A DNA stretch of 12,306 bases from assembly GCA_023380955.1 (NCBI GenBank), contig JAMCTB010000063.1, forward strand, positions 1 through 12,306, given 5' to 3'. Shown here in pieces: positions 1,210-12,306 of the stretch. Within the stretch, counting starts at the first letter, position 1, and every line of letters begins with the position of its first letter. The notes under the pieces were generated by a model. That model worked only from the letters and a program-made list of their open reading frames with translations. It was not told where the DNA came from and made no database searches. The position numbers were made by a program, and so were the translations under genes. The DNA is from Chloroflexota bacterium. Lineage in GTDB: Bacteria; Chloroflexota; UBA6077.

Positions 1210-2130
1210 TCAGCGCCGTGCGCGGGGGTCGAGCAGCTCGGTCAGCCAGTCGCCGAGTAGGCTGGTGGCAAGGCAGGTGAGGGAGACGGCCAGCCCAGGG
1301 TACACGGTGAGCCACCAAGCCTTGGCCATGTAGTCCTTGCCCTCGGCCAGCATGTTGCCCCAGGCCGGGATGGGGGGTTGGATGCCGTATCCGAGGAAAC
1401 TCAGGGAGGATTCGGCCACTATCAGCCGGCCCGCCTCCAGGGAGGCGAGGGCGATGGCCGGACCGACGACGTTGGGGAGCACGTGGCGGAGGACGAGCCG
1501 CCAGCCCGGTGACCCGATGCTCCGCGCCGCCTCCACAAACTCCGCCCTCTTCATCACCAGCACCTCGCCCCGAACCAGGCGGGCGTACAGCACCCAGGAA
1601 GAGATCGCCAGGGTCGCGATGATGGCCCCAAGGCCGGCGCCGAGCACGGCCGCGATGCTCAGGGCGAGGGCCATGAAGGGGAAACTGAGCTGAACGTCCA
1701 CTATCCGGGAGCCCACGATGTCCAGCCAGCCGCCGCGATACCCCATCGCGAGACCGATGATGACTCCCACGGTTCCGGCAAAGAAGACGGCCACCCCCCC
1801 GACCAACAGGGAGACCCTGGCCCCAAACAGCAGGCGAGCCAGGACGTCCCTCCCCAACTGGTCGGTGCCGAGCCAATGGCCGGGGGAGCCGGGGGCCAGC
1901 AGTCGCTGATCCACGTTCGCCCGCAGAGGATCGTAGCCGGCAAGCAGCGGCGCCGCGATGGCCAGCACCACTTCCAGAGCCAGGAACAGCCCGGCGGCGA
2001 TGCCCCAGGCGGAATCCCCCCTCAGCCTCAACCGTCGCAACAGCCGGCGCTGGGGGAGCTCCGCCTGCCAGTTCTCCGAGGTCCCTCCGCTCCGCTTGCC
2101 GGACAGCCCGCTGTCGAGCACCTCACTCAT
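1210..2130 (-). CDS. ABC peptide/nickel-type importer permease, DppC/OppC family
   Basis: This 306-residue inner-membrane permease is one half of the channel of a peptide-class (PepT/Dpp/Opp/Nik) ABC importer. The family marks are clear. There is an N-terminal membrane segment (about 43-65), then the conserved HWLGTDQLGRDVLARLLFGA stretch (about 85-104). The EAA loop that docks the ATPase follows (EAARSIG, then RHVLPN, residues 200-220). The SSLSFLGYGIQPP signature sits near 241-253. Its ATG overlaps the end of the dppB-type gene by 8 bases (ATGAGTGA), indicating translational coupling. Length is normal for the family. The substrate cannot be read from the sequence, but peptides are likely given the neighbouring M24 gene. 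No ATPase gene follows. The next gene is a sensor kinase. Confidence 0.93.
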   Translation of the reverse strand: MSEVLDSGLSGKRSGGTSENWQAELPQRRLLRRLRLRGDSAWGIAAGLFLALEVVLAIAAPLLAGYDPLRANVDQRLLAPGSPGHWLGTDQLGRDVLARLLFGARVSLLVGGVAVFFAGTVGVIIGLAMGYRGGWLDIVGSRIVDVQLSFPFMALALSIAAVLGAGLGAIIATLAISSWVLYARLVRGEVLVMKRAEFVEAARSIGSPGWRLVLRHVLPNVVGPAIALASLEAGRLIVAESSLSFLGYGIQPPIPAWGNMLAEGKDYMAKAWWLTVYPGLAVSLTCLATSLLGDWLTELLDPRARR

Positions 2131-3040
2131 AGACGATCCTGGGGTTCAGCAGACCGTAGAGCAGGTCCACGATCAGGTTGACCAGCGAGACGCTGGCGGC
2201 GGTGAAGAAGACGGCGGCCAGGGCGGTCGGGAAATCGCGAAACTGGATGGACTGGACGATCAGCCTTCCCAACCCCGGCCAGGCGAAGATGGTTTCCACC
2301 ACGATGGCCCCGCCCAGCAAACCGCTCATTTGAAGGCCAATGATGGTGACGATGGGGATGCCGGCGTTCTTCAGCACGTGGCGGTAGAGCACAACTCGCT
2401 CGGACAGCCCCTTGGCGCGGGCCGTTCGAACGTATTCGGCTCGCAGCACCTCCAGCACGCTGGAGCGTGTCAGCTTGACGATGCGGCCCAGGGAGTAGAG
2501 GCCCAGGGTGAGCCCGGGCAGGATCAACTGCTCCGGGGTGCCCATTCCTCCGGTGGGAAGCAGGCCCAGGTTCACCGAGAACAGCAGGATCAGCAGAAGC
2601 CCCAGCCAAAAGCTGGGCACCGACTGACCCAGCACCGAGCCCACGTTGGAGAGCCGGTCGGCGAGGCTGCCGTTCCGGATAGCAGCCAGGAATCCCAGGG
2701 GCACGCCCACCACCACGGCGAAGACGATGGAAACCAGGGTGAGCAAGCCGGTCGCCGGCAACCGCTCCAGCACCAGCTGCAGGGCCGGAATGTTGTACCG
2801 CAGCGACACGCCGAAGTCGCCCAGGGCGGCGCGACTGATGAATCGGCCGTACTGCACCCAGAGCGGGTCGTTGAAACCCCACTGGACCCGCACCCTCTCG
2901 ATGTATTCTGGCGTGGAGTCCGCCGGAACCAACAGCAGGACCGGGTCTCCGCTGAGGTGCAAGACTCCGAACATCAGGCTGAGCGCCAGAAAGACGGTAA
3001 GAAGGCTGAGAGCCAGCCGCCGCGCTATGTAGGGTAGCAT
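2123..3040 (-). CDS. ABC peptide/nickel-type importer permease, DppB/OppB family
   Basis: This 305-residue permease partners the DppC-type protein. It begins with the typical MLPYIARRLALSLLTVF membrane segment. The periplasmic loop follows, containing GDP and a PLWVQYGRFI stretch before the GDFGVS motif (residues 74-79). There are further membrane spans at roughly 100-122, 136-162, 230-254 and 275-297. The EAA loop is EYVRTARAKGL followed by YRHVLKN (about 202-224). The VVETIFAWPGLG motif (247-258) is diagnostic for DppB. The ATG at 3040 is preceded by a G-rich Shine-Dalgarno-like stretch (GGGGGCGAGG). It lies 114 nt after the binding-protein gene and overlaps the next permease by 8 nt, in the usual A-B-C order. 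Substrate unknown. Confidence 0.93.
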   Translation of the reverse strand: MLPYIARRLALSLLTVFLALSLMFGVLHLSGDPVLLLVPADSTPEYIERVRVQWGFNDPLWVQYGRFISRAALGDFGVSLRYNIPALQLVLERLPATGLLTLVSIVFAVVVGVPLGFLAAIRNGSLADRLSNVGSVLGQSVPSFWLGLLLILLFSVNLGLLPTGGMGTPEQLILPGLTLGLYSLGRIVKLTRSSVLEVLRAEYVRTARAKGLSERVVLYRHVLKNAGIPIVTIIGLQMSGLLGGAIVVETIFAWPGLGRLIVQSIQFRDFPTALAAVFFTAASVSLVNLIVDLLYGLLNPRIVYE

Positions 3041-3077
3041 TCGATTCGCCTCGCCCCCAGGCAGCCCTCGATACGGG

Positions 3078-3116
3078 GAGCCGAGGCTCTAGCCGGTCGC
3101 GCCAAGCGCCCGACCG
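3078..3116 (-). other. Intercistronic hairpins between binding-protein and permease genes
   Basis: The 114-nt gap holds two inverted repeats: GAGCC/GGCTC (3078-3082 with 3085-3089) and CGGTCG/CGACCG (3094-3099 with 3111-3116). No T tract follows. Such hairpins between a solute-binding protein gene and its permeases often protect the upstream message and lower downstream expression. That role is inferred from position only. Confidence 0.35.
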
Positions 3117-3154
3117 AGGCCCCGACTCCCGATGGAGACCACCGCGGATCGTTA

Positions 3155-4684
3155 CTACTTCAGGGTTGCCCGTTCCAGGTTGAACTGCTCGTCGGCCTTG
3201 GGTTTCCAGTCCAGCTTCTTGCTGGCGCCATAGATGTCGTTCTGGGACCAGAGGAAGATCCATGGGGCCTGCTGCTGGACCAGCGTCTGAGCCTGGTAGT
3301 AGGCCTGCCGGCGCTTCTCCGGATCCACCGTGGGCAGCGCGGCCTCGATGGCTGCATCGACCTTCTTATCGGAGTAGGTGACCCAGGTCGAGCCCGTCCG
3401 GAACCAGTCTTTCAGCATGGAGCCGTCGAGGGAGGTGTCGCTGCGGCCGAAGAAGTAGATGCCATCGATCTTGTTGGCCTTGACGAGGTCGAGCAGCGAC
3501 CCCCACTCGTCCACCTGCACCTTCACGTTGATCCCCGCCTGGGTGAGTTGGTCTGCGATGGCCTCGGCAGCTTCCTTGTCCTTCAGGTATCGCCCGCTTG
3601 GGGTGTGCAACGTTATCGGCTCGCCCTTGTACCCGGCCTCCTGCAGCAGCGCCTTGGCCTTGGCCGGATCGTAGGAGTAGGGCTTGAGATTCGAATCCAG
3701 ATGCTGGTTGATGGCCGGCAGGGGACCTGCCATCCGCTTGGCGTTGCCCTCCATGACCGTCCGGATGATCTTGTCCACGTCCACCGCATAGTTCAAGGCC
3801 TGTCGCACCCTCGCGTCCTGGAGCGGACCGGGCAGGAGGGTGTTGATGCCGACGAAGATCACCCGGCGGCCCGCCACCGTCCTGGTGTCCGCCGTCGACG
3901 ACTTGTTGACCTGATCCATCGACTGGGGAGGAACGTCCGGGATCAGCTGCACCTCGCCCGCCAGCAGGGCCGAAACCCGGGAGCTGACGTCGGGGATGAT
4001 GCGGAACTCCACGGCCGCGATCTGCGGCTTTGGTCCCCAGTAGTCATCGTTCCGCACCAGGGTGATGCTCTGCTCCCGCTTCCACTCCTGCAGCTTATAG
4101 GGGCCGGTGCCGATCGGTTTCTCGGTCATGGCCTGCGGGCCCTGCTCCTTGAGAACCTTGGCAGGAGCCATGTAGATCTCCGTGAATCCCTCGAGGAGGG
4201 AGGGGAACGGCTTCTCGGTGGTCGCCGTCACCGTGTAATCGTCCACAACGGTGGTGGACTTCACCGCATCGATGCGAATCTTCCTGGCGGCGTTGTTCTC
4301 CTTCTTAGCCAGGTAATCGAGGGTGGCCTTCACCGACTCGGCGTTGAAAGGCTCTCCGTTGCTGAACTTGACGCCCTTGCGCAGCTTGATCTCCCAGTTG
4401 AGATCGTCCAGGCTCTTAGCCGACTCGGCTAGCTGGGGTACCACCTTCATATCGTGGTCGCGGGTGAACAGGTGGTCGTAGACGTGGGTATCCACCCGGT
4501 CTGTGGTGTTGTCCAGGGTGTTGACGGGATCGAAGTTGCGGATGTCCGCGTTGAGCCCCACCACGACTTTGGTGGCGGCGCCGCCCTGGGCTCCGGAGGA
4601 AGTGGTACCCGACTGGGATTGCTGACAACCTGCGACGATACTGAGGATGAGTGCCAATCCGACCAGGACAAGGGTTCTGCGCAC
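3155..4684 (-). CDS. ABC importer solute-binding lipoprotein, peptide-binding family 5 (DppA/OppA-like)
   Basis: This 509-residue extracytoplasmic receptor delivers substrate to the two permeases. It starts with a lipoprotein signal peptide: MRR, a hydrophobic core, then the lipobox IVAGC with Cys20 as the acylated residue. A Ser/Gly/Thr-rich tether follows. Family-5 (SBP_bac_5) landmarks are present: FDPVNTLDN near the start, WEIKLRKGVKFSNGEPFNAE, GTGPYKLQEW, NDDYWG, and DARVRQALNYAVDVDKII. The C-terminal region reads PWIFLWSQNDIYG. The start is a GTG at 4684 preceded by AAAGGAG about 6 nt away, a strong ribosome site that decides the start. It lies only 24 nt after the M24 gene, so co-transcription is very likely. 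Ligand specificity is not predictable, and dipeptides, oligopeptides, nickel and glutathione are all family ligands. Confidence 0.95.
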   Translation of the reverse strand: MRRTLVLVGLALILSIVAGCQQSQSGTTSSGAQGGAATKVVVGLNADIRNFDPVNTLDNTTDRVDTHVYDHLFTRDHDMKVVPQLAESAKSLDDLNWEIKLRKGVKFSNGEPFNAESVKATLDYLAKKENNAARKIRIDAVKSTTVVDDYTVTATTEKPFPSLLEGFTEIYMAPAKVLKEQGPQAMTEKPIGTGPYKLQEWKREQSITLVRNDDYWGPKPQIAAVEFRIIPDVSSRVSALLAGEVQLIPDVPPQSMDQVNKSSTADTRTVAGRRVIFVGINTLLPGPLQDARVRQALNYAVDVDKIIRTVMEGNAKRMAGPLPAINQHLDSNLKPYSYDPAKAKALLQEAGYKGEPITLHTPSGRYLKDKEAAEAIADQLTQAGINVKVQVDEWGSLLDLVKANKIDGIYFFGRSDTSLDGSMLKDWFRTGSTWVTYSDKKVDAAIEAALPTVDPEKRRQAYYQAQTLVQQQAPWIFLWSQNDIYGASKKLDWKPKADEQFNLERATLK

Positions 4685-4708
4685 CTCGTTCTCCTTTCCG
4701 CGTTCCGG

Positions 4709-5875
4709 CTACGACTTCCAGACGATGCAGCTCTCCAGCTGCTTAGCTCCAAAGGTGATGCATTCGGCCCCTGTGGGGGTGAGTATGAAGGTATCCGAGT
4801 GGCGAACGCCGCCGGCGCCGGGGACGTAGATGCCTGGCTCCACGGTGACCGCCATTCCGCTTTCCAGAGTGCGGTCGCTGTCGTGGCGCATGTCGGGCAT
4901 CTCGTGGGGTTCCATGCCGATGCTGTGGCCGGTCCGATGGACGAAGTATGGACCGTAACCGGCCCTGGAGATGACGTCTCGGGCCGCGCGATCGACTTCC
5001 CGGGCGAGAACGCCGGCCCGCAGTGCCTCGATGGCGGCCTGCTGGGCCTCGCACATCACCTGGAACATCCGCGTCAATTCCGCCGAGGGGGTCCCCACGA
5101 AGAAGGTACGTTCGCACTCCGCCGTGTAGCCATCTACTCTGATCAACCGCCGATGGATGCCGAGGTCGGGGTTGGTGATGGTTCGGTTGCTGGTGACGGC
5201 GTGGGGGAGGGCGGCCTTCTCCACGCCGGAGGCGGTGAGGATCTTCACCAGGTCTATGGTAGCGTCGGGAAGTTCCTCCGCCGCCGCCAGAAGGGCAGAG
5301 CGATTGCCCTCCAGTTCGGCCAGAGGTTCCGTGATCCCGGGGCGGAATGCAGCGACGGTGTCGCGAGCAGCGATGCTCGCCAGCTTCCCCGCGATGCGCA
5401 TCAGCCGCTGCTCCTCCTCGTCCTTGATTTCCCTCATTCCATGGATGAGGGGGTCGACGTCCCCGAGGCGTAGCCCCCGAGCGGCGATCGTCTGGGCCCA
5501 CTGCCAGGGGAGGATGCTGGCCTCGATGCCCACGGCGGCTCCTCGCGGCAGGCCGGCCAGAAGATCCTCCAGCATTGCCGCCGCCCCGGCCTGCGCTCCC
5601 CCACTGGCCCGGGTTGCCCCCGGAAGTTCCTGGTAAGCCACCACTTGATCCACCACGGCTTTGGATCGGGCGTGCTTCTCCTCCAGCCCCGGGACCACCA
5701 GGGTGCTGCTAGAAGGGGTGACGAAGGTCAAGATCGGGCGCGAATATATGTGGGCGAGGAAGCCGCTCAGGTAGTGCTGGTGCGCCGGCAGCCAGATCAG
5801 CGCGGCCCCCAGTGCCCGTTCGGAGAGGGACTTCTGGAAGCGGGCGAGCCGGGCGCGCCTGATGGGGTCGTCCAT
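4709..5875 (-). CDS. M24-family protein (Xaa-Pro peptidase/creatinase fold) with altered metal site
   Basis: This 388-residue protein has an N-terminal creatinase-type domain (about 1-140) and a pita-bread catalytic domain (about 150-388). Conserved parts are PHAVTS (His225), HRTGHSIG (His317), PHE (His324) and VEPGIY (Glu346). Three of the five usual metal ligands are not canonical. The first Asp position is Arg242, the second is Glu253 (in GYTAECERTF), and the last Glu is Ser360 (GGVRHSD). Creatinase, a metal-free member of this fold, likewise has an ERT motif and lost ligands. Activity as an ordinary Xaa-Pro dipeptidase is therefore uncertain. Related C-N hydrolysis on small amidine or amide substrates is an alternative. 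The ATG at 5875 has GGAGG about 6 nt upstream. It heads the importer operon, which suggests it processes the imported solute. Confidence 0.88.
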   Translation of the reverse strand: MDDPIRRARLARFQKSLSERALGAALIWLPAHQHYLSGFLAHIYSRPILTFVTPSSSTLVVPGLEEKHARSKAVVDQVVAYQELPGATRASGGAQAGAAAMLEDLLAGLPRGAAVGIEASILPWQWAQTIAARGLRLGDVDPLIHGMREIKDEEEQRLMRIAGKLASIAARDTVAAFRPGITEPLAELEGNRSALLAAAEELPDATIDLVKILTASGVEKAALPHAVTSNRTITNPDLGIHRRLIRVDGYTAECERTFFVGTPSAELTRMFQVMCEAQQAAIEALRAGVLAREVDRAARDVISRAGYGPYFVHRTGHSIGMEPHEMPDMRHDSDRTLESGMAVTVEPGIYVPGAGGVRHSDTFILTPTGAECITFGAKQLESCIVWKS

Positions 5876-6149: not shown

Positions 6150-7928
6150 ATGGAAAAGCCAAAGGCGTGGAGCCTGAACCACTCGGAACTGGGGCTCGGG
6201 GGCAAGAACTCCTTCCGCCCGGCCGTCATGGGCACCCACGGTATGGTGTCCTCTGGGCACTACCTCTCAAGCCTGGCCGGCGTGCAGGTGCTGGAGGAGG
6301 GCGGCAACGCAATAGACGCCGGCGTGGCGGCAGCCGTGGCCGGTTGCGTCCTCCAGAGCGATTTCGTCAGCTTCGGTGGGGTTGCGGCGATCCAGATCTA
6401 CCGATCCGACCTGGATCAGTCCTTCACCATAGCCGGCGTGGGCCACTGGCCCGCGCTGGCCAGTCTGGAGTACTTCCGCGATGCATGCGGCGGCCACGTC
6501 CCTAACGACGTGCGCAACGGGGTCGTCCCGGGCGGGCCCGACGGCTACCTCACTGCCATCGAGCGCTTCGGCACTTGGAGCTTCGGCCGGGCCGTTCGTC
6601 GGGCCACGGAGCTGGCCGAAGAGGGCTTCCCCATGTTTCCCTTCCGCTACGAGCAGCAGATGGCGCACCAGGACGTCATGGACAAGTTCCCATCTACCCG
6701 GGAGGTTCTGTGGCCCGGGGGAAGGCAGCCAAAGCCGGGGGAGATCTTCCGGCAGCCGGAGCTGGGGCGCACCCTGCAACTGATGGCAGGGGCCGAGGCC
6801 GGCGCGGGCTCGGGGGATCGCTCGAGGGGGATCCAGGCGGCCAGAGACCTCTTCTACCGGGGCGAGATCGCCGATCGGATCGATCGCTTCTACAGCGAAA
6901 ACGGCGGTTTCCTGCGCAAGGGGGACATGGCCGACTACAGGGCGGCCGTCGATCCGCCGATGGTGGGAAGCTGGAGGGGCTACGAGATCAGGACCTGCTC
7001 CTTCTGGTCGAAGGGCCCGATGCTGATCCAGCTGCTGAACCTGTTGGAGGAGTACGACCTCAGCGCCCTCGGCCACAACTCGCCGGAGTACGTCCACCTG
7101 GTGACCGAGGCCCTCAAGATGGCCTTCGCCGACCGCCACGCCTACTACGGCGATCCAAGGATGGTGGAGGTGCCGGCCGAGGGCCTGCTCTCCAAGGAGT
7201 ATGCCCGCGCGCGTCGAAAGCTGATCGATGGGGGCAGGGCCTGGCCGGAGATGCCCCCGGCGGGGGACCCGTGGAGCGGGGCGGCGGTTCGGGGAGAAGC
7301 CCCTGAGGCGCCCGGCGCCACACGGCGGAGTCCCCGGGAGCAGTTGGACACCAGCTACCTGTGTGTGGTGGATCGCTGGGGCAACTTCTTCGGTGCCACC
7401 TTCAGCGATCCCTTCATGAGCTCGCCCATCGTCCCAGGCACCGGCCTGGTCGTCTCCAACCGAGGCATTCAGGCCTTCGTGGACCCCGATCATCCCAACC
7501 GAGTGCGGCCTGGCCAGCGTCCCGTGATCACCCCGAACCCCGCCATGGTGTTCAAAGATGGCAAGCCGGTGCTGGCCCTGGGCTCGCCGGGCTCGGACGT
7601 GCAGGTGCAGGCCATGGCGCAGGTGCTGCTGAACGTCCTGGAGTTTGGGATGGATCCCCAACAGGCGGTGGAGGAGCCCCGCTTCGCCACCTTCAGCCAT
7701 CCCGGCTCTTTCGAGCCCCACAGCTACCTTCCCGGCGTTCTGCGCCTGGAGGCGCGGATTCCGGAGGAGACCATGGGACGGCTGGAGCAGCTGGGTTACA
7801 AGGTGGAGCCGTGGCTCGCCTGGCAATGGCAGGCAGGAGGGGTGAGCGCGATCAGCTACGACCCGAAGACGGCTCTGATGGTGGGTGGCGCCGACAGCCG
7901 GCGGGAGAACTACGCCATAGGGTGGTAA
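6150..7928 (+). CDS. ggt: Gamma-glutamyltranspeptidase-family protein (glutathione hydrolase-like)
   Basis: This 592-residue Ntn-hydrolase of the GGT family is normally cleaved autocatalytically into large and small subunits. The new N-terminal Thr acts on gamma-glutamyl bonds. The family opening MVSSGHYLSSLAGVQVLEEG and GGNAIDAGVAAAVAG is intact. The cleavage site is D400-T401-S402 (LDTSYLCVVDRWGN), predicting a small subunit from Thr401. Differences from classical GGT are visible. Tyr403 replaces the usual His of the TTH motif. The NNEMDDF-type loop reads SNRGIQAF (436-443). The GSPGG motif reads GSPGSD (478-483). These point to a GGT-like paralogue whose donor or acceptor may differ. There is no signal peptide, suggesting a cytoplasmic enzyme. 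The ATG at 6150 has a weak AGGGGG ribosome site and no in-frame start was seen just upstream. It is divergent from the peptide importer operon. Confidence 0.9.
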   Translation: MEKPKAWSLNHSELGLGGKNSFRPAVMGTHGMVSSGHYLSSLAGVQVLEEGGNAIDAGVAAAVAGCVLQSDFVSFGGVAAIQIYRSDLDQSFTIAGVGHWPALASLEYFRDACGGHVPNDVRNGVVPGGPDGYLTAIERFGTWSFGRAVRRATELAEEGFPMFPFRYEQQMAHQDVMDKFPSTREVLWPGGRQPKPGEIFRQPELGRTLQLMAGAEAGAGSGDRSRGIQAARDLFYRGEIADRIDRFYSENGGFLRKGDMADYRAAVDPPMVGSWRGYEIRTCSFWSKGPMLIQLLNLLEEYDLSALGHNSPEYVHLVTEALKMAFADRHAYYGDPRMVEVPAEGLLSKEYARARRKLIDGGRAWPEMPPAGDPWSGAAVRGEAPEAPGATRRSPREQLDTSYLCVVDRWGNFFGATFSDPFMSSPIVPGTGLVVSNRGIQAFVDPDHPNRVRPGQRPVITPNPAMVFKDGKPVLALGSPGSDVQVQAMAQVLLNVLEFGMDPQQAVEEPRFATFSHPGSFEPHSYLPGVLRLEARIPEETMGRLEQLGYKVEPWLAWQWQAGGVSAISYDPKTALMVGGADSRRENYAIGW

Positions 7929-7966: not shown

Positions 7967-10417
7967 CTACATCACCACCACGTTGACCAATCGGTTGGGC
8001 ACGTAGATCACGTCCTTCACCTGGTGGCCGTCCAGGTAGGCCCGGATCTTCTCCCTGTCCAGCACCAGCCGCTGGACCTCCTCCTTGGGGGTGCCGATCG
8101 GGATCTCCAGCTTGTCGCGGACCTTGCCGTTCACCTGCACCACCAGGGTCACCATCTCCTCGATGGTCAGGGCCTCCTCCCACTTCGGCCAGTCCTGCAG
8201 GTGGACGCTCTCCCTGTGGCCGGTGCGGTGCCACAGCTCCTCGGCCAGGTGGGGGGCGCTGGGAGCCAGAAGCAGGTTCAGGGTCCGCACCGCATCCCTC
8301 CACACCGGCGCCGAGACGGAGCCGTAGGCCGCGTTCATGGTGTTGACGTACTCCATCATTCGGGCCAGCATGGTGTTGTAGCGGAACTTCTCCAGGTCGT
8401 CGGTGACGGTCTTGATGGTCTTGTGCATGGCCCGGGTCAGCTTCTTGTCGGCCTCGGCCGTGCCGTTGCCGGCGCCCCGGCTGGGGGCCTCCTGCAGCGC
8501 CAGAGCCCAAACCCTGTTCAGGAACTTGAAGACGCCGCTGATGCCGCTTGCGCTCCAGGGTCCTCCCGAGTCCCACGGCCCGATGAACATCAGGTAGCAG
8601 CGGACGGTGTCGGCGCCCATCTGCTTCACGTACTCGTCGGGGTTCACCACGTTGCCCCGGGACTTGCTCATCCGGTAGCCGTCGGGCCCCAGGATGATCC
8701 CCTGGTTGAACAGCCGCTGGAAGGGCTCCCCCGTTTCCGCCAGCCCCATGTCCCGCAGCACCCTCTGGAAGAAGCGGGAGTAGAGCAGGTGCATCACGGC
8801 GTGCTCCACGCCGCCCATGTACTGGTCCACCGGCATCCAGTAGCGGGACTTCTGCGGATCGAAGGGGCCTTCCCGATAGTGCGGGTCGGTGTAGCGCAGG
8901 AAGTACCAGGAGGAGTCCACGAAGGTGTCCATGGTATCGGTCTCGCGCTTCGCCGGACCGCCGCACTGGGGGCAGGTGGTGTTCAGGAAGTTCTCGTCGT
9001 ACTTCAGCGGGTTCACCCGGGCCTTGAACTCCAGCCCCTCGTATCGCGGCAGCTCGATGGGCAGATCCTCCTCGGGCACCGGGACGATGCCGCAGTGGTC
9101 GCAGTACAGCATCGGGATGGGGGTGCCCCAGTAGCGCTGGCGGGAGACCAGCCAGTCGCGGATCCGGTAGTTCACCGTCCGCCGGCCGATCCCCTTGGAC
9201 TCCAGGTACTCGGCCACCCTGGTCTTGCCCGCCACCGAAGGTGTGCCGTCGAAGGGGCCGGAGTCGATCATGATCCCCGGCTCGGTGTAGGCCTGCTCCA
9301 GCTCGCCGGAGGGCCGCCCGGTGGGGCTGATCACCTCTCGGATCTCCAGGCCGAACCGCTTGGCGAACTCGAAGTCCCGCTCGTCGTGGGCCGGCACCGC
9401 CATGATGGCGCCGGTACCGTAGGTGCCCAGGACGTAGTCGGCGATCCAGATGGGCACCCACTGTCCGTTCACCGGGTTGACGGCGTAGGCGCCGATGAAG
9501 ACGCCGGACTTCTCCTTCTCGGTGGAGAGCCGCTCGATCTCGCTCTGGCGGCGGGCCTGCTCCACGTAGGCCGTGACCTCCTGGCGCCGGTCGGGGGTGG
9601 TCAGCTTCTCTACCAGGGGATGCTCCGGGGCCAGGACGGCGTAGGTGATGCCGTAGATGGTGTCGGGTCGGGTGGTGAAGACCTCGAAGGACTCGGCGGA
9701 ACCGGCCACCTGCATGACGAACTGAACGCCCTCGCTGCGGCCGATCCAGTTGCGCTGCATGGTCACGACCCGCTCGGGCCATTCGATCTCATCGAAGTTC
9801 AGCAGCTCGTCGGCGTAGGCGGTAATCTTGAAGAACCACTGCTCCAGATCGCGCCGCGCCACGATGGTCTCGCATCGCCAGCAGCGGCCGTCCTCCACCT
9901 GCTCGTTGGCCAGGACCGTCTCGCAGTGAGGGCACCAGTTGGCAGGCGCCTTGGCCCGGTAGGCCAGACCCCGCTTGTAGAACTGCAGGAAGAACCACTG
10001 GTTCCATCGGTAGTATTCGGGGCGACAGGATGCCAGGGTGTGGCTCCAGTCGTACATGTTGCCGATGGTCTTCAGCTGGCGGGTCATGTTCTCGATGTTG
10101 CGCTCGGTCCAGTCGGCCGGGTTGATGCCATTCTTGATGGCGGCCTCCTCGGCCGGCAGTCCGAAGGCGTCGAAGCCTATGGGCTCGAAGACGTTGTACC
10201 CCTGCATCCGCTTGTAGCGGGCGTGGGTGTCGGCGGGGGCGAAGTTGTACCAGTGGCCGACGTGCAGGTCGCCGGAGGTGTAGGGGAACATGACCAGGGC
10301 ATAGTGCTTCGGCTTGGAGGGATCCTCGCGGACGCGGTAGATCCCCATCTCCTTCCACTTAGCCTGCCACCTGGCCTCGATTTCGCTGGGGTTGAACCTC
10401 TCCACCTGCTTAGCCAT
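7967..10417 (-). CDS. leuS: Leucyl-tRNA synthetase
   Basis: This cytoplasmic class I synthetase charges tRNA-Leu with leucine (816 residues, within the bacterial range). The HIGH motif is HVGH (residues 52-55, in PYTSGDLHVGHW) and the KMSKS loop is RMSKS (582-586). A first zinc-ribbon-like pair is C162-x2-C165 and C179-x2-C182. A second is C439-x2-C442 and C482-x2-C485. The CP1 editing domain shows the Thr-rich TTRPDT (248-253) and VPAHDERDFEFA (341-352), so it should be able to edit mischarged tRNA. The C-terminal VQVNGKVRDKLEIP and VIYVPNRLVNVV segments are typical. The ATG at 10417 has GGAGGTG a few bases upstream. Expression should be governed by the T-box leader upstream, induced when tRNA-Leu is uncharged. 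Confidence 0.98.
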   Translation of the reverse strand: MAKQVERFNPSEIEARWQAKWKEMGIYRVREDPSKPKHYALVMFPYTSGDLHVGHWYNFAPADTHARYKRMQGYNVFEPIGFDAFGLPAEEAAIKNGINPADWTERNIENMTRQLKTIGNMYDWSHTLASCRPEYYRWNQWFFLQFYKRGLAYRAKAPANWCPHCETVLANEQVEDGRCWRCETIVARRDLEQWFFKITAYADELLNFDEIEWPERVVTMQRNWIGRSEGVQFVMQVAGSAESFEVFTTRPDTIYGITYAVLAPEHPLVEKLTTPDRRQEVTAYVEQARRQSEIERLSTEKEKSGVFIGAYAVNPVNGQWVPIWIADYVLGTYGTGAIMAVPAHDERDFEFAKRFGLEIREVISPTGRPSGELEQAYTEPGIMIDSGPFDGTPSVAGKTRVAEYLESKGIGRRTVNYRIRDWLVSRQRYWGTPIPMLYCDHCGIVPVPEEDLPIELPRYEGLEFKARVNPLKYDENFLNTTCPQCGGPAKRETDTMDTFVDSSWYFLRYTDPHYREGPFDPQKSRYWMPVDQYMGGVEHAVMHLLYSRFFQRVLRDMGLAETGEPFQRLFNQGIILGPDGYRMSKSRGNVVNPDEYVKQMGADTVRCYLMFIGPWDSGGPWSASGISGVFKFLNRVWALALQEAPSRGAGNGTAEADKKLTRAMHKTIKTVTDDLEKFRYNTMLARMMEYVNTMNAAYGSVSAPVWRDAVRTLNLLLAPSAPHLAEELWHRTGHRESVHLQDWPKWEEALTIEEMVTLVVQVNGKVRDKLEIPIGTPKEEVQRLVLDREKIRAYLDGHQVKDVIYVPNRLVNVVVM

Positions 10418-10447
10418 CCGCCCACCTCCGTTGCCTCGTCTGCACTT

Positions 10448-10468
10448 CCCTCTCCCAGGGGGAGAGGG
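10448..10468. repeat. REP-like palindrome in the leuS 5' untranslated region
   Basis: CCCTCTCCC and GGGAGAGGG form a perfect 9-bp stem with a 3-nt loop, followed on the plus strand by GGGTCGCGGTGAGGG. It resembles the GC-rich dispersed palindromes (CCCTCTCCC...GGGAGAGGG) found in many copies in some bacterial genomes, but copy number cannot be checked here. It lies between the T-box terminator and the leuS ribosome site. A smaller hairpin (10490-10503, CACCC/GGGTG) lies next to it. Confidence 0.5.
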
Positions 10469-10526
10469 TCGCGGTGAGGGCTATTCCCACACCCTCGCGG
10501 GTGCAACAGCCCCAAATAGCGCGAAA

Positions 10527-10557
10527 GCCTTTCGCCCAACCACCAGGGACGAAAGGC
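10527..10557 (-). terminator. T-box-controlled intrinsic terminator of leuS
   Basis: On the minus strand GCCTTTCGTCCC (10557-10546) pairs with GGGCGAAAGGC (10537-10527), with one bulged T. It shares CGTCCCT with the antiterminator, so the two structures exclude each other. The T tract is short (TTT, then CGCGC), so termination may be leaky or may need help. Confidence 0.75.
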
Positions 10558-10597
10558 CGTTCCGCGGTACCACCCTGCTTGACGAGGGTTCCTTAAT

Positions 10598-10672
10598 TGG
10601 TGGAGCAGAGGGGAATTGAACCCCTGACCTCTTCCATGCCAAGGAAGCGCGCTCCCGCTGCGCCACTGCCCC
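10598..10672 (-). tRNA. tRNA-Ala(GGC), CCA encoded, inside the leuS T-box leader
   Basis: A full 75-nt cloverleaf can be drawn. The acceptor is GGGGCAG/CTGCTCC with the G3:U70 wobble that is the alanine identity signal. The D arm is GCGC/GCGC, and the anticodon arm is CTTCC-TTGGCAT-GGAAG with anticodon GGC (complement of 10638-10640). The T arm is AGGGG-TTCAATT-CCCCT, with discriminator A and encoded CCA. It reads GCC and GCU Ala codons. No separate promoter is apparent, so it should be transcribed from the leuS leader promoter and released by RNase P and 3' processing. Its location, after T-box Stem III and 21 nt before the T-box sequence, is highly unusual. Confidence 0.97.
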
Positions 10673-10856
10673 ATGAAAGTGGAGCCGCTCGTCCGCTCTT
10701 CAGCGCCGTAACGGTCGCCGACCGGCAGCGGCTACTGGCGTTCACCGCTGCAACTCCCGGGCGAGTTCGGCCCTTGGCGCTTGCCTGCCTGCCGGTTCCC
10801 ACCCTCCCGGCTCTCTGAATGTGGCTCGGCCTAATACTCCCGCTCAACGCACGGAT

Positions 10857-10886
10857 ATGATACCAGAGACCCTCGGGAGGTTGCAA
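10857..10886 (-). promoter_or_regulatory. Promoter of the T-box/tRNA-Ala/leuS transcript
   Basis: On the minus strand TTGCAA (10886-10881) and TATCAT (10862-10857) are spaced 18 nt apart. The -10 differs from TATAAT at one position. Predicted transcription starts near 10850, a few bases before the first strand of T-box Stem I, exactly where a T-box leader should begin. The next upstream gene ends at 10931. Confidence 0.65.
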
Positions 10887-10893
10887 GGGCGCA

Positions 10894-10924
10894 GACGGGG
10901 AGAAGGGTGCGTCCTCTCCCCGTC
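10894..10924 (-). terminator. Hairpin after the AroM-family gene
   Basis: GACGGGGAGA (10894-10903) and TCTCCCCGTC (10915-10924) form a perfect 10-bp stem with an 11-nt loop, starting 7 nt after the stop codon of the AroM-family gene. No T tract follows on the minus strand. It may end or stabilise that message, separating it from the leuS promoter. Confidence 0.5.
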
Positions 10925-10930
10925 TCCCCG

Positions 10931-11608
10931 TCAGACCAGCTCGGCCAGGGTTCGGGCAAGCACCGTGCGGGGCAGGATCACCGGCACCCGGGCGATCTCG
11001 GCGGCCCGCGCCTTCATGGCGGTGGTGAAGCCCATGCAGTCCAGCACGATCATGTCGGCCTCCCACCTCCTCAGGGCCTCGGTGGCCCGTTCCAGCTGGG
11101 AGATCCCCGCGTAGGGGGAGCCGGCCTCCACCCGCACCTCCCTGGCCACCGGCTTCCACCGCAGGATCGCCTGCTCCACCTGCTCCGGCGCGGGGATCAC
11201 CACCCCCAGCCGGCGGCCCTCGGCGAGGGCGGCGACGAAGTGGTGCAGAACCGGCTGCGGCTTGACCAGCAGCTTGTCACTCCGGAAGGGAGGGAACTCC
11301 CCGGTGCACAGCAGGGCCACGGCCTCGGCCCCCGCCGCGATCACCCGGTCTATCTGCCCCTGCATCCTGGGCAGGATGTGGTGCTCCGCTATCTGGACGG
11401 AGCTCCCGTCCGCCAGGCGGGTCACCAGCACGTAGTCCCCCGGCTTCGGTGCCAGCTCCGCCACCTGCTCCCCGGTCAGTCCGTCCAGCGCCCCGCCCTC
11501 GAGGAACTCGACGTCGGGGCCCAGGATCGACTGGATCTCCGGCACCACGTCGGTTCGAGGGGACTGGCCTATGGTGATGGCGCCGATCTTCCGCCTGCCG
11601 TCTCCCAT
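10931..11608 (-). CDS. AroM family protein
   Basis: From the ATG at 11608 the product is 225 residues, the same length as E. coli AroM. It shares family features: an N-terminal IGAITIGQSPRTDVVPE strand-loop, and ALDGLTGEQVAELAPKPGDYVLVTRL. The middle and end carry LLCTGEFP, GVVIPAPEQ, and the C-terminal DMIVLDCMGFT followed by PVILPRTVLARTLAEL. The open frame runs back to 11806, but that extension is Arg-rich, lies in palindromic DNA and has no family similarity. AAAGGA about 8 nt upstream supports 11608. AroM has no established biochemical function. The E. coli gene is named for its link with the aroL region. The fold resembles Asp/Glu racemase-like proteins, which is only a weak hint. It follows a probable DUF1177 gene on the same strand. 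Confidence 0.88.
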   Translation of the reverse strand: MGDGRRKIGAITIGQSPRTDVVPEIQSILGPDVEFLEGGALDGLTGEQVAELAPKPGDYVLVTRLADGSSVQIAEHHILPRMQGQIDRVIAAGAEAVALLCTGEFPPFRSDKLLVKPQPVLHHFVAALAEGRRLGVVIPAPEQVEQAILRWKPVAREVRVEAGSPYAGISQLERATEALRRWEADMIVLDCMGFTTAMKARAAEIARVPVILPRTVLARTLAELV

Positions 11609-11750
11609 TTTCCCCATCCTTTCTTGCCCCATTGCCGCCACACGCAAGCCCGGTGCTCGCGGCATCGGGGATTGCCGGCCCGGCTGACCGCGGAGCCGCA
11701 CGTGACTGCCGGCGCCGGCGAGCCGCGACCGAGCGAGACCCATCCTGTAG

Positions 11751-11870
11751 CGTCGGGGCTCGTCCCCGACGTGGTGCCACGTCGCCCACAAGGAGCGACG
11801 CAGCACGGAGCCTCTTCACGGCAGACACGGAGTCATTTACTACGATCTCAGTGCGCTCCGCGTCTCCGTG
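11751..11870. repeat. Cluster of overlapping palindromes between the DUF1177-like and AroM-family genes
   Basis: The 273-bp gap 11609-11881 holds no gene but several perfect or near-perfect inverted repeats. They are CGTCGGGG/CCCCGACG (11751-11758 with 11764-11771), CGACGTGG/CCACGTCG (11767-11774 with 11777-11784) and CGTCGC/GCGACG (11780-11785 with 11795-11800). A longer imperfect pair joins CACGGCAGACACGGAG (11817-11832) to CTCCGCGTCTCCGTG (11856-11870). The first three overlap, so alternative folds compete. The last resembles the CCACGGAGACACGGAG-type dispersed repeat seen in several bacterial phyla. Mobility or protein binding cannot be judged from one copy. Confidence 0.6.
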
Positions 11871-11881
11871 GTGTCCCGGCC

Positions 11882-12306
11882 TCACGACCTCCCCAGGGTC
11901 TGCAGCCAGCCCATGTCGCCGTAAAGCTTTCGTAGACGGGCGTACTCCTCCTCGTCGTAGAAGTGGCAGCCGCCGGCCCCGTAGGCTTTGGCCACCTCGA
12001 TACAGAAGCGGACGGCGCCCTCCACGTCGTCCAGGTGGGAGGCCCCTGTCGCCGAGCCGGGCACCGGCACCTCGGTGGTGATGGCCACCCCCACCACGGG
12101 TGCCGCGGTTGCCGTGGCCGGCTGCAGAATGCTGTTCAGGTGGAACAGGCCGTTCCCGTAGGGGGTGATGTCCTGGGTGGTGATGGCGAAGACCGCCGGC
12201 AACTTGCCGGTCACGATCTGCATCAGCCCCAGGAGATCCTCGCTGACCCGCAGGACGTAGCCCTGCTTCACCGTGGGGGAGATGGCAGGCGGAAGATCGG
12301 CGCCAT
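11882..12306 (-). CDS. Probable DUF1177 family protein (5' end outside window)
   Basis: The open frame enters at the window edge (…GADLPPAISPTVKQGYV) and ends at TGA 11884-11882, giving about 141 residues of a longer protein. A GTG at 12271 is inside conserved-looking sequence, so it is not the true start. Recognisable stretches are VSEDLLGLMQIVTG, TTQDITPYGNGLFHLNSIL, PVVGVAITTEVPVPGSATGA and the C-terminal HFYDEEEYARL. These resemble the DUF1177 family from memory. The function of that family is unknown. Genes of this type occur near AroM-family and peptidase or oligopeptide-transporter genes, and here an AroM-family gene follows 273 nt downstream. The assignment is from pattern recall rather than a search. 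Confidence 0.65.
   Translation of the reverse strand, partial: GADLPPAISPTVKQGYVLRVSEDLLGLMQIVTGKLPAVFAITTQDITPYGNGLFHLNSILQPATATAAPVVGVAITTEVPVPGSATGASHLDDVEGAVRFCIEVAKAYGAGGCHFYDEEEYARLRKLYGDMGWLQTLGRS

Follow-up and report, generated by a model that had tools for sequence, protein, structure and literature searches.

The tRNA-tufB operon of E. coli is a transcription unit in which tRNA and protein genes are joined. In leucine T-box riboswitches (RF00230), Stem I with its CUC specifier, the CCGTTA element, the RRRNG-Stem III-AA motif, the core with its UGGU bulge and a competing hairpin precede leuS. The RRRNG-Stem III-AA motif and the role of Stem III in the discriminator have been described (excerpts of PMC7583486 and PMC7778990), and insertions of unknown function occur in every T-box domain, Stem III included, according to the excerpts of PMC7583486. 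Furthermore, a two-codon T-box that binds two tRNAs has been reported (Saad 2013, as described in an excerpt of PMC4052509).

The leuS leader of the window (the whole 12,306-nt stretch of Chloroflexota DNA that was analysed) has all of these leucine T-box parts. However, where Stem III otherwise ends in a short loop, it holds here a whole tRNA gene that is probably essential. As in tRNA-tufB, one transcript would give both a tRNA and an mRNA, but the tRNA lies here inside a regulatory RNA structure and not beside the gene. Two tRNAs would be involved with one T-box, as in the two-codon case; in contrast, both are trans ligands there (excerpt of PMC4052509), whereas the second is cis-encoded here. 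T-box insertions, Stem III ones among them, are likewise known, but the excerpts of PMC7583486 mention no tRNA gene as an insertion. No description of a tRNA gene in a T-box was found in the open-licence PMC literature, outside which most subscription papers lie, or in the excerpts of PMC2494555, PMC7583486, PMC7778990, PMC4052509, PMC1262725 and PMC4919913. To that extent the original prediction, which knew of no parallel, stands; the locus is not a single oddity, though, but one case of a conserved Ala(GGC) arrangement. By its sequence and predicted structure, the leader would be a T-box riboswitch of a new, tRNA-hosting type.

The leader matches RF00230 from end to end (model positions 1-219 of 219). 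In the Stem III hairpin the match is interrupted by 101 inserted nt, within which lies a complete tRNA-Ala(GGC) (Table 1). A complete tRNA-Ala gene inside the leuS T-box leader was the central claim of the original prediction, and it was borne out, as the RF00230 match spans both sides of the tRNA and ARAGORN calls tRNA-Ala(GGC). All the elements named beforehand (specifier, CCGTTA, GACGAG, tRNA, CTCGTC and T-box core) lie on the minus strand where they had been placed, and the same 57 nt separate CCGTTA from the T-box region once the tRNA is removed. The 6-bp GACGAG/CTCGTC helix that had been proposed around the tRNA is Stem III, flanked by RRRNG and AA.

Table 1. Features of the tRNA-bearing leuS leader in the window
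Feature	Position	Strand	Basis
Promoter-like site TTGCAA-18-TATCAT, TG before second hexamer	10857..10886	-	consensus scan of 10400-11000
T-box leader, tRNA-interrupted, full-length RF00230	10542..10856	-	cmscan 76.3 bits, E 8e-17
Specifier codon CUC (leucine), context GAA-CUC-GCC	10763..10765	-	sequence and RF00230 alignment
CCGTTA element, 5' of Stem III	10709..10714	-	sequence; aligns with RF00230 consensus CCGUUA
RRRNG motif GAGCG, just before Stem III 5' strand	10698-10694	-	sequence, RF00230 alignment
Stem III 5' strand GACGAG	10688..10693	-	RF00230 alignment, flank helix analysis
tRNA-Ala(GGC), 75 nt, in Stem III loop	10598..10672	-	ARAGORN, RF00005, identity elements
Stem III 3' strand CTCGTC, then AA (10580-10579)	10581..10586	-	RF00230 alignment, flank helix analysis
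T-box core GGTGGTACC	10574-10566	-	sequence
T-box core and antiterminator region; bulge UGGU at 10572-10569	10545..10576	-	RF00230 alignment, sequence
Terminator-like competing hairpin GCCTTTCG...CGAAAGGC, U tract interrupted	10527..10557	-	sequence
leuS, leucyl-tRNA synthetase, 816 aa	7967..10417	-	ORF; Pfam PF13603, PF00133, PF08264

On the minus strand, the order is promoter-like site, Stem I, CCGTTA, RRRNG and Stem III with the tRNA, AA, core, competing hairpin and leuS. The discriminator signature of a T-box (GAGCG-GACGAG...CTCGTC-AA plus UGGU) is present, and the leucine specifier agrees with the regulated gene downstream. The score of 76.3 bits falls under the RF00230 gathering score of 93, and a default Rfam run on the window therefore reports the tRNA alone. 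The neighbouring genes at 1213-5875(-), 6150-7925(+) and 10934-12271(-) belong by Pfam to two ABC permeases, a family-5 binding protein, an M24 peptidase, a gamma-glutamyltranspeptidase, AroM and DUF1177, with no link to the T-box seen.

The tRNA of the window is a tRNA-Ala(GGC) gene with cloverleaf, GGC anticodon, G3:U70, A73 and an encoded CCA, and scores 66.5 bits with RF00005 (gathering score 29). All of the 117 embedded copies compared (116 loci and the window) have the GGC anticodon, G3:U70 and A73. They also have CCA, which the search pattern demanded; stem positions differ among the copies. The base at position -1 is U in 94 of the 117 leaders, against a background of 22% U in the 30 nt upstream, and RNase P prefers U just before a tRNA. 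The embedded tRNA thus looks like a working gene. In locus L127, its D arm appears unusual by eye (GCGAAGTTGGGATCGC). Several Chloroflexota loci (L007, L054, L056, L072, L155, L156, L158, L159) have a second tRNA gene, tRNA-Ala(CGC), about 350 nt further upstream, before the T-box, and therefore carry two alanine tRNA genes before leuS.

A one-mismatch tRNA-Ala(GGC) pattern found one GGC copy in 47 of 50 host genomes and two in the other three (G027, G028 and G035); the further matches, those with one mismatch, have the anticodon CGC. By coordinates, the embedded copy is among these matches in 49 of the 50, the exception being the genome of L116, with a single copy at longer spacing. In 46 of the 50, tRNA-Ala(GGC) is both embedded and sole, a pattern-based count from which a divergent second copy might escape, as the strict pattern misses a known embedded gene in G325, G070 and G065 and the G391 copy contains Ns; many host genomes are also MAGs and may be incomplete. 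With a looser pattern, one copy was found in each of 22 of the 50. The single match in G136, the genome of locus L151, is again the embedded copy.

Genome contigs were scanned with a pattern of T arm, CCA, gap and T-box core that is blind to tRNA identity, which gave at least 120 matches. The search for other genomes with both elements, suggested in the original prediction, thus met with many, at least 116 loci being confirmed by ARAGORN: in 116 of the 120 matches listed, the T-box core is preceded at a distance of 11-59 nt by a tRNA, which is Ala(GGC) in every one of the 116. Outside this number stand L014 and L099, where the tRNA is cut at the locus edge (the L014 genome does carry a GGC gene there), L028, a false positive with no tRNA found, and L116, with a complete tRNA-Ala(GGC) 278 nt before the core. 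In L116 (Armatimonadetes), at about 4090-4440, the tRNA 3' end is repeated nearer the core with a long stretch between the copies; this might be a trace of insertion at the tRNA 3' end.

By their labels, the matches listed come from Bacillota, Chloroflexi/Chloroflexota, Thermomicrobiales/Thermomicrobiota, Armatimonadota, Atribacteria/Atribacterota, Caldisericota, Coprothermobacterota and a few other groups, and include 12 cultured strains (Desulfotruncus, two Desulfofundulus, Thermosyntropha, Tengunoibacter, Desulfallas, two Dictyobacter, Ktedonobacter, two Syntrophomonas and Desulfovirgula). Prevalence, counted by exact patterns with the centre genome included, was at least 21 of 301 genomes in the phylum of G027 (Dictyobacter kobayashii), at least 49 of 61 in the class of G033 (Syntrophomonas wolfei), at least 22 of 60 in the class of G006 (Desulfofundulus), at least 18 of 43 in the phylum of G018 (L039, labelled Armatimonadetes) and at least 18 of 50 in that of G023 (L048, labelled Atribacteria). 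These are lower bounds because leuS loci of non-matching genomes also hold tRNA-Ala(GGC) near the core. An identity-blind pattern matched at least 30 of 149 genomes in the phylum of G033, and these 30 all end in CTCCACCA, as tRNA-Ala does here. The observation is thus real and recurrent, a conserved arrangement rather than a one-off.

The T-box is conserved around the tRNA as well. Since the fold energy of the whole leader in the window was no better than that of shuffled sequences (z 0.15) and hence uninformative, the flanks were tested by permutation in 115 of the 117 leaders (the 5' flanks of L091 and L095 were too short). A Stem III helix with 5 or more Watson-Crick pairs, anchored immediately upstream of the core, encloses the tRNA in 93 of 115 leaders and was not found in 22, whereas permuted 5' flanks gave a mean of 41.9 and a maximum of 55 enclosing helices in 200 trials. 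There are 73 distinct 5' strands among the enclosing helices, and RRRNG stands before the helix in 66 of the 93. At 10690-10667(-) of the window, the predicted fold also pairs the tRNA 5' leader with the tRNA 5' end (GCTCCA with TGGGGC), a possible competing hairpin for which conservation was not seen.

The specifier is CTC in 88 of 111 leaders scored (6 more were unscored), and some of the other calls are misreadings, as L016, L057 and L096 have GAACTCGCC just after the scored triplet. A looser specifier pattern was present in 105 of 113 leaders, with a chance rate of roughly one leader in eight. We also considered a dual specifier, with CUC followed by the alanine codon GCC. However, GCC follows CUC in L137 and L164 too, which are T-boxes with a short Stem III and no tRNA, and some embedded leaders have GTC, ACC or ATC in its place. 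Therefore, GCC is no second specifier. The full T-box model, across the tRNA, passed the gathering score in 8 of 18 relatives; 10 of 18 scored below it, like the window, which may explain why such leaders get overlooked.

The first gene after the tRNA-bearing T-box is mostly leuS. In 21 loci that looked different, a leuS match lies 1.0-2.2 kb after the T-box in 16, with an aminotransferase, an acyl-CoA synthetase or some other gene in between, and none was found within the available stretch in 5. By eye, the first gene looks like an acyl-CoA synthetase or a branched-chain aminotransferase in some loci (L006, L012, L029, L044, L077, L088, L108, L117; L007, L023, L039, L054, L060, L067, L079). 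Wherever it falls within the available stretch, leuS comes next; L006 shows none.

We consider it probable that the leader has two products, the leucine T-box governing readthrough into leuS while the same transcript serves as the precursor of tRNA-Ala(GGC). This reading is based on sequence: the anatomy, the conservation, the tRNA identity, the pattern-based copy number and the leuS operon context. From these we infer a single transcript that spans T-box and tRNA, processing of the tRNA and a working switch. A promoter upstream of Stem I would serve a leucine-specific (CUC) T-box that controls the leuS operon, and tRNA-Ala(GGC), usually the sole copy found, would be inserted at the apex of Stem III, which is the discriminator's variable hairpin. 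The tRNA would fold as a domain of its own, so that Stem I, Stem III and the antiterminator could still act on tRNA-Leu. The T-box decision would fall during transcription, while the folded tRNA caps Stem III, and maturation would come afterwards, with RNase P releasing the tRNA 5' end. Since the tRNA lies before the terminator, attenuated and readthrough transcripts would both be tRNA precursors, and the supply of tRNA-Ala(GGC) should thus be independent of the leucine decision. The promoter-like site upstream of most leaders and the U tract that, by the rule used, comes after the hairpin in 86 of 116 speak for this reading. Against it weigh the 30 leaders with no such tract, the window among them, the whole-leader fold, the 22 leaders in which Stem III was not found, the internal site of six Ktedonobacteria and the 10 relatives below the T-box cut-off. 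In the window the U tract is interrupted, and a terminator scan of 10400-11000 found none, while in the relative L151 the hairpin is followed by T8.

An RNase P cut would part Stem I from the antiterminator; hence either the switch has decided before RNase P cuts, or cutting is itself a part of the control. The latter leads to a reading that we regard as possible though doubtful, in which tRNA folding or RNase P excision forms part of the switch. The 5' cut could detach Stem I and its bound tRNA-Leu from the antiterminator and so set a time window for the decision; alternatively, the tRNA stacked on Stem III could shape the discriminator, or leucine status could tune the maturation of tRNA-Ala. 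The position of the tRNA between Stem I and the antiterminator is constant in the matches listed, the U at -1 suggests RNase P cutting, and Stem III, which is needed for the discriminator (excerpt of PMC7583486), pairs the tRNA 5' leader with its 3' trailer. However, linkers between Stem III and the tRNA vary widely in length, and the related T-boxes L137 and L164 do without the tRNA, which suggests that the tRNA is tolerated rather than a needed part. In its boldest form, RNase P excision would sever Stem I from the antiterminator and make the riboswitch dismantle itself, a race between maturation and transcription would set the switch, and leucine would feed back on the only source of GCC-decoding tRNA. 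We hold this form to be rather unlikely; if true, it would tie the translation capacity for two amino acids into one RNA.

That the tRNA is a tenant in a decayed T-box, which some lineages would keep only as tRNA promoter and terminator with switching lost, appears improbable. The weak U tract of the window and its Rfam score under the cut-off fit decay, as do L140, L145 and L146, where leuS is preceded by tRNA-Ala(GGC) and, by eye, by a stretch resembling a promoter and a hairpin resembling a terminator, but by no T-box core. On the other hand, the specifier, CCGTTA, RRRNG and UGGU are intact in the window, and the comparison with L151, the nearest relative found (LeuS 81% identical; paired on the tree with support 100), argues for a maintained T-box. 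The two tRNAs are identical at 75 of 75 positions (100%), the T-box core at 34 of 38 (89%) and the stretch from Stem I to CCGTTA at 123 of 149 (83%), whereas identity drops to 46 of 124 (37%) after the terminator; the Stem III strands with their linkers agree at 25 of 35 and 11 of 18 positions and the promoter at 15 of 30.

Separate transcription of the tRNA from a promoter inside the leader is very improbable. A separate promoter with its start between 10672 and 10576 would have refuted the original prediction, by that prediction's own terms. However, the site upstream of the T-box is the sole promoter-like match in 10400-11000 and likely marks the start of the leader, and there is no such site between Stem I and the tRNA in the window. 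Among the 104 leaders scored (relatives and window; 13 with too little upstream sequence were left out), 92 have a promoter-like site 140-420 nt before the tRNA, against 18.5 in shuffles, and 8 have one within the last 140 nt, near the 3.9 of shuffles. Six of these 8 are Ktedonobacteria (L003, L016, L056, L057, L072, L096) with a common TTGTCGG...AAT site inside the leader, 34-49 nt ahead of the tRNA, and may thus have a second promoter there. Chance or an assembly artefact is hardly credible, and the misplaced tRNA that the original prediction had allowed for is very unlikely, given the recurrence in 116 of 120 matches listed, cultured strains and contigs of up to 6.1 Mb included, and in at least 21 of 301 to at least 49 of 61 genomes of the sampled groups.

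The history of the arrangement was followed in another 60 leuS loci, of which 59 belong to genomes that the exact patterns had not matched and one (L161) to a genome that they had (G131). Among the 55 that could be scored, 15, L161 included, have tRNA-Ala(GGC) at most 160 nt from a T-box core or core variant, 9 have it without core or variant, 8 have a core but gave no tRNA call (in L126, one of these, a tRNA contains Ns), and 23 have neither, some of these being incomplete stretches. Embedded tRNAs with a variant core or longer spacing occur here, for example with GGTGGCACC in L127 and L129 and GGTGGTATC in L133, L139 and L141.

On a LeuS tree (FastTree, 134 rows with six partial rows omitted; L014, L099 and L126 set as embedded by hand), the embedded state occurs in both main halves, with 17 as the fewest state changes; Caldisericota and Coprothermobacterota rows are not among the named groups. 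The pattern fits an old ancestry with repeated losses, and transfer would also be possible; as the sampling favours embedded cases, the tree does not distinguish a single origin from transfer. The original prediction had seen the tRNA as inserted into an otherwise standard leader. The T-box match on both sides agrees with this, but the insertion itself we can only infer, because embedded, tRNA-less and T-box-less states intermix on the tree. Three MAGs labelled Desulfovibrio, Proteobacteria and Aneurinibacillus (L097, L019 and L106, respectively) carry leuS of other tree groups, and their labels or bins may be wrong.

Three questions can now be put to the test: what size of folded insert Stem III accepts, by what means RNase P processing and switching during transcription keep out of each other's way or make use of each other, and how the 3' end of a CCA-encoding tRNA is released from an mRNA leader. 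To judge by the sequences, these bacteria seem to rely on a leucine switch's promoter for their supply of tRNA-Ala(GGC). Our comparison suggests that a complete tRNA gene can reside in a riboswitch, with both roles kept over long evolutionary times.
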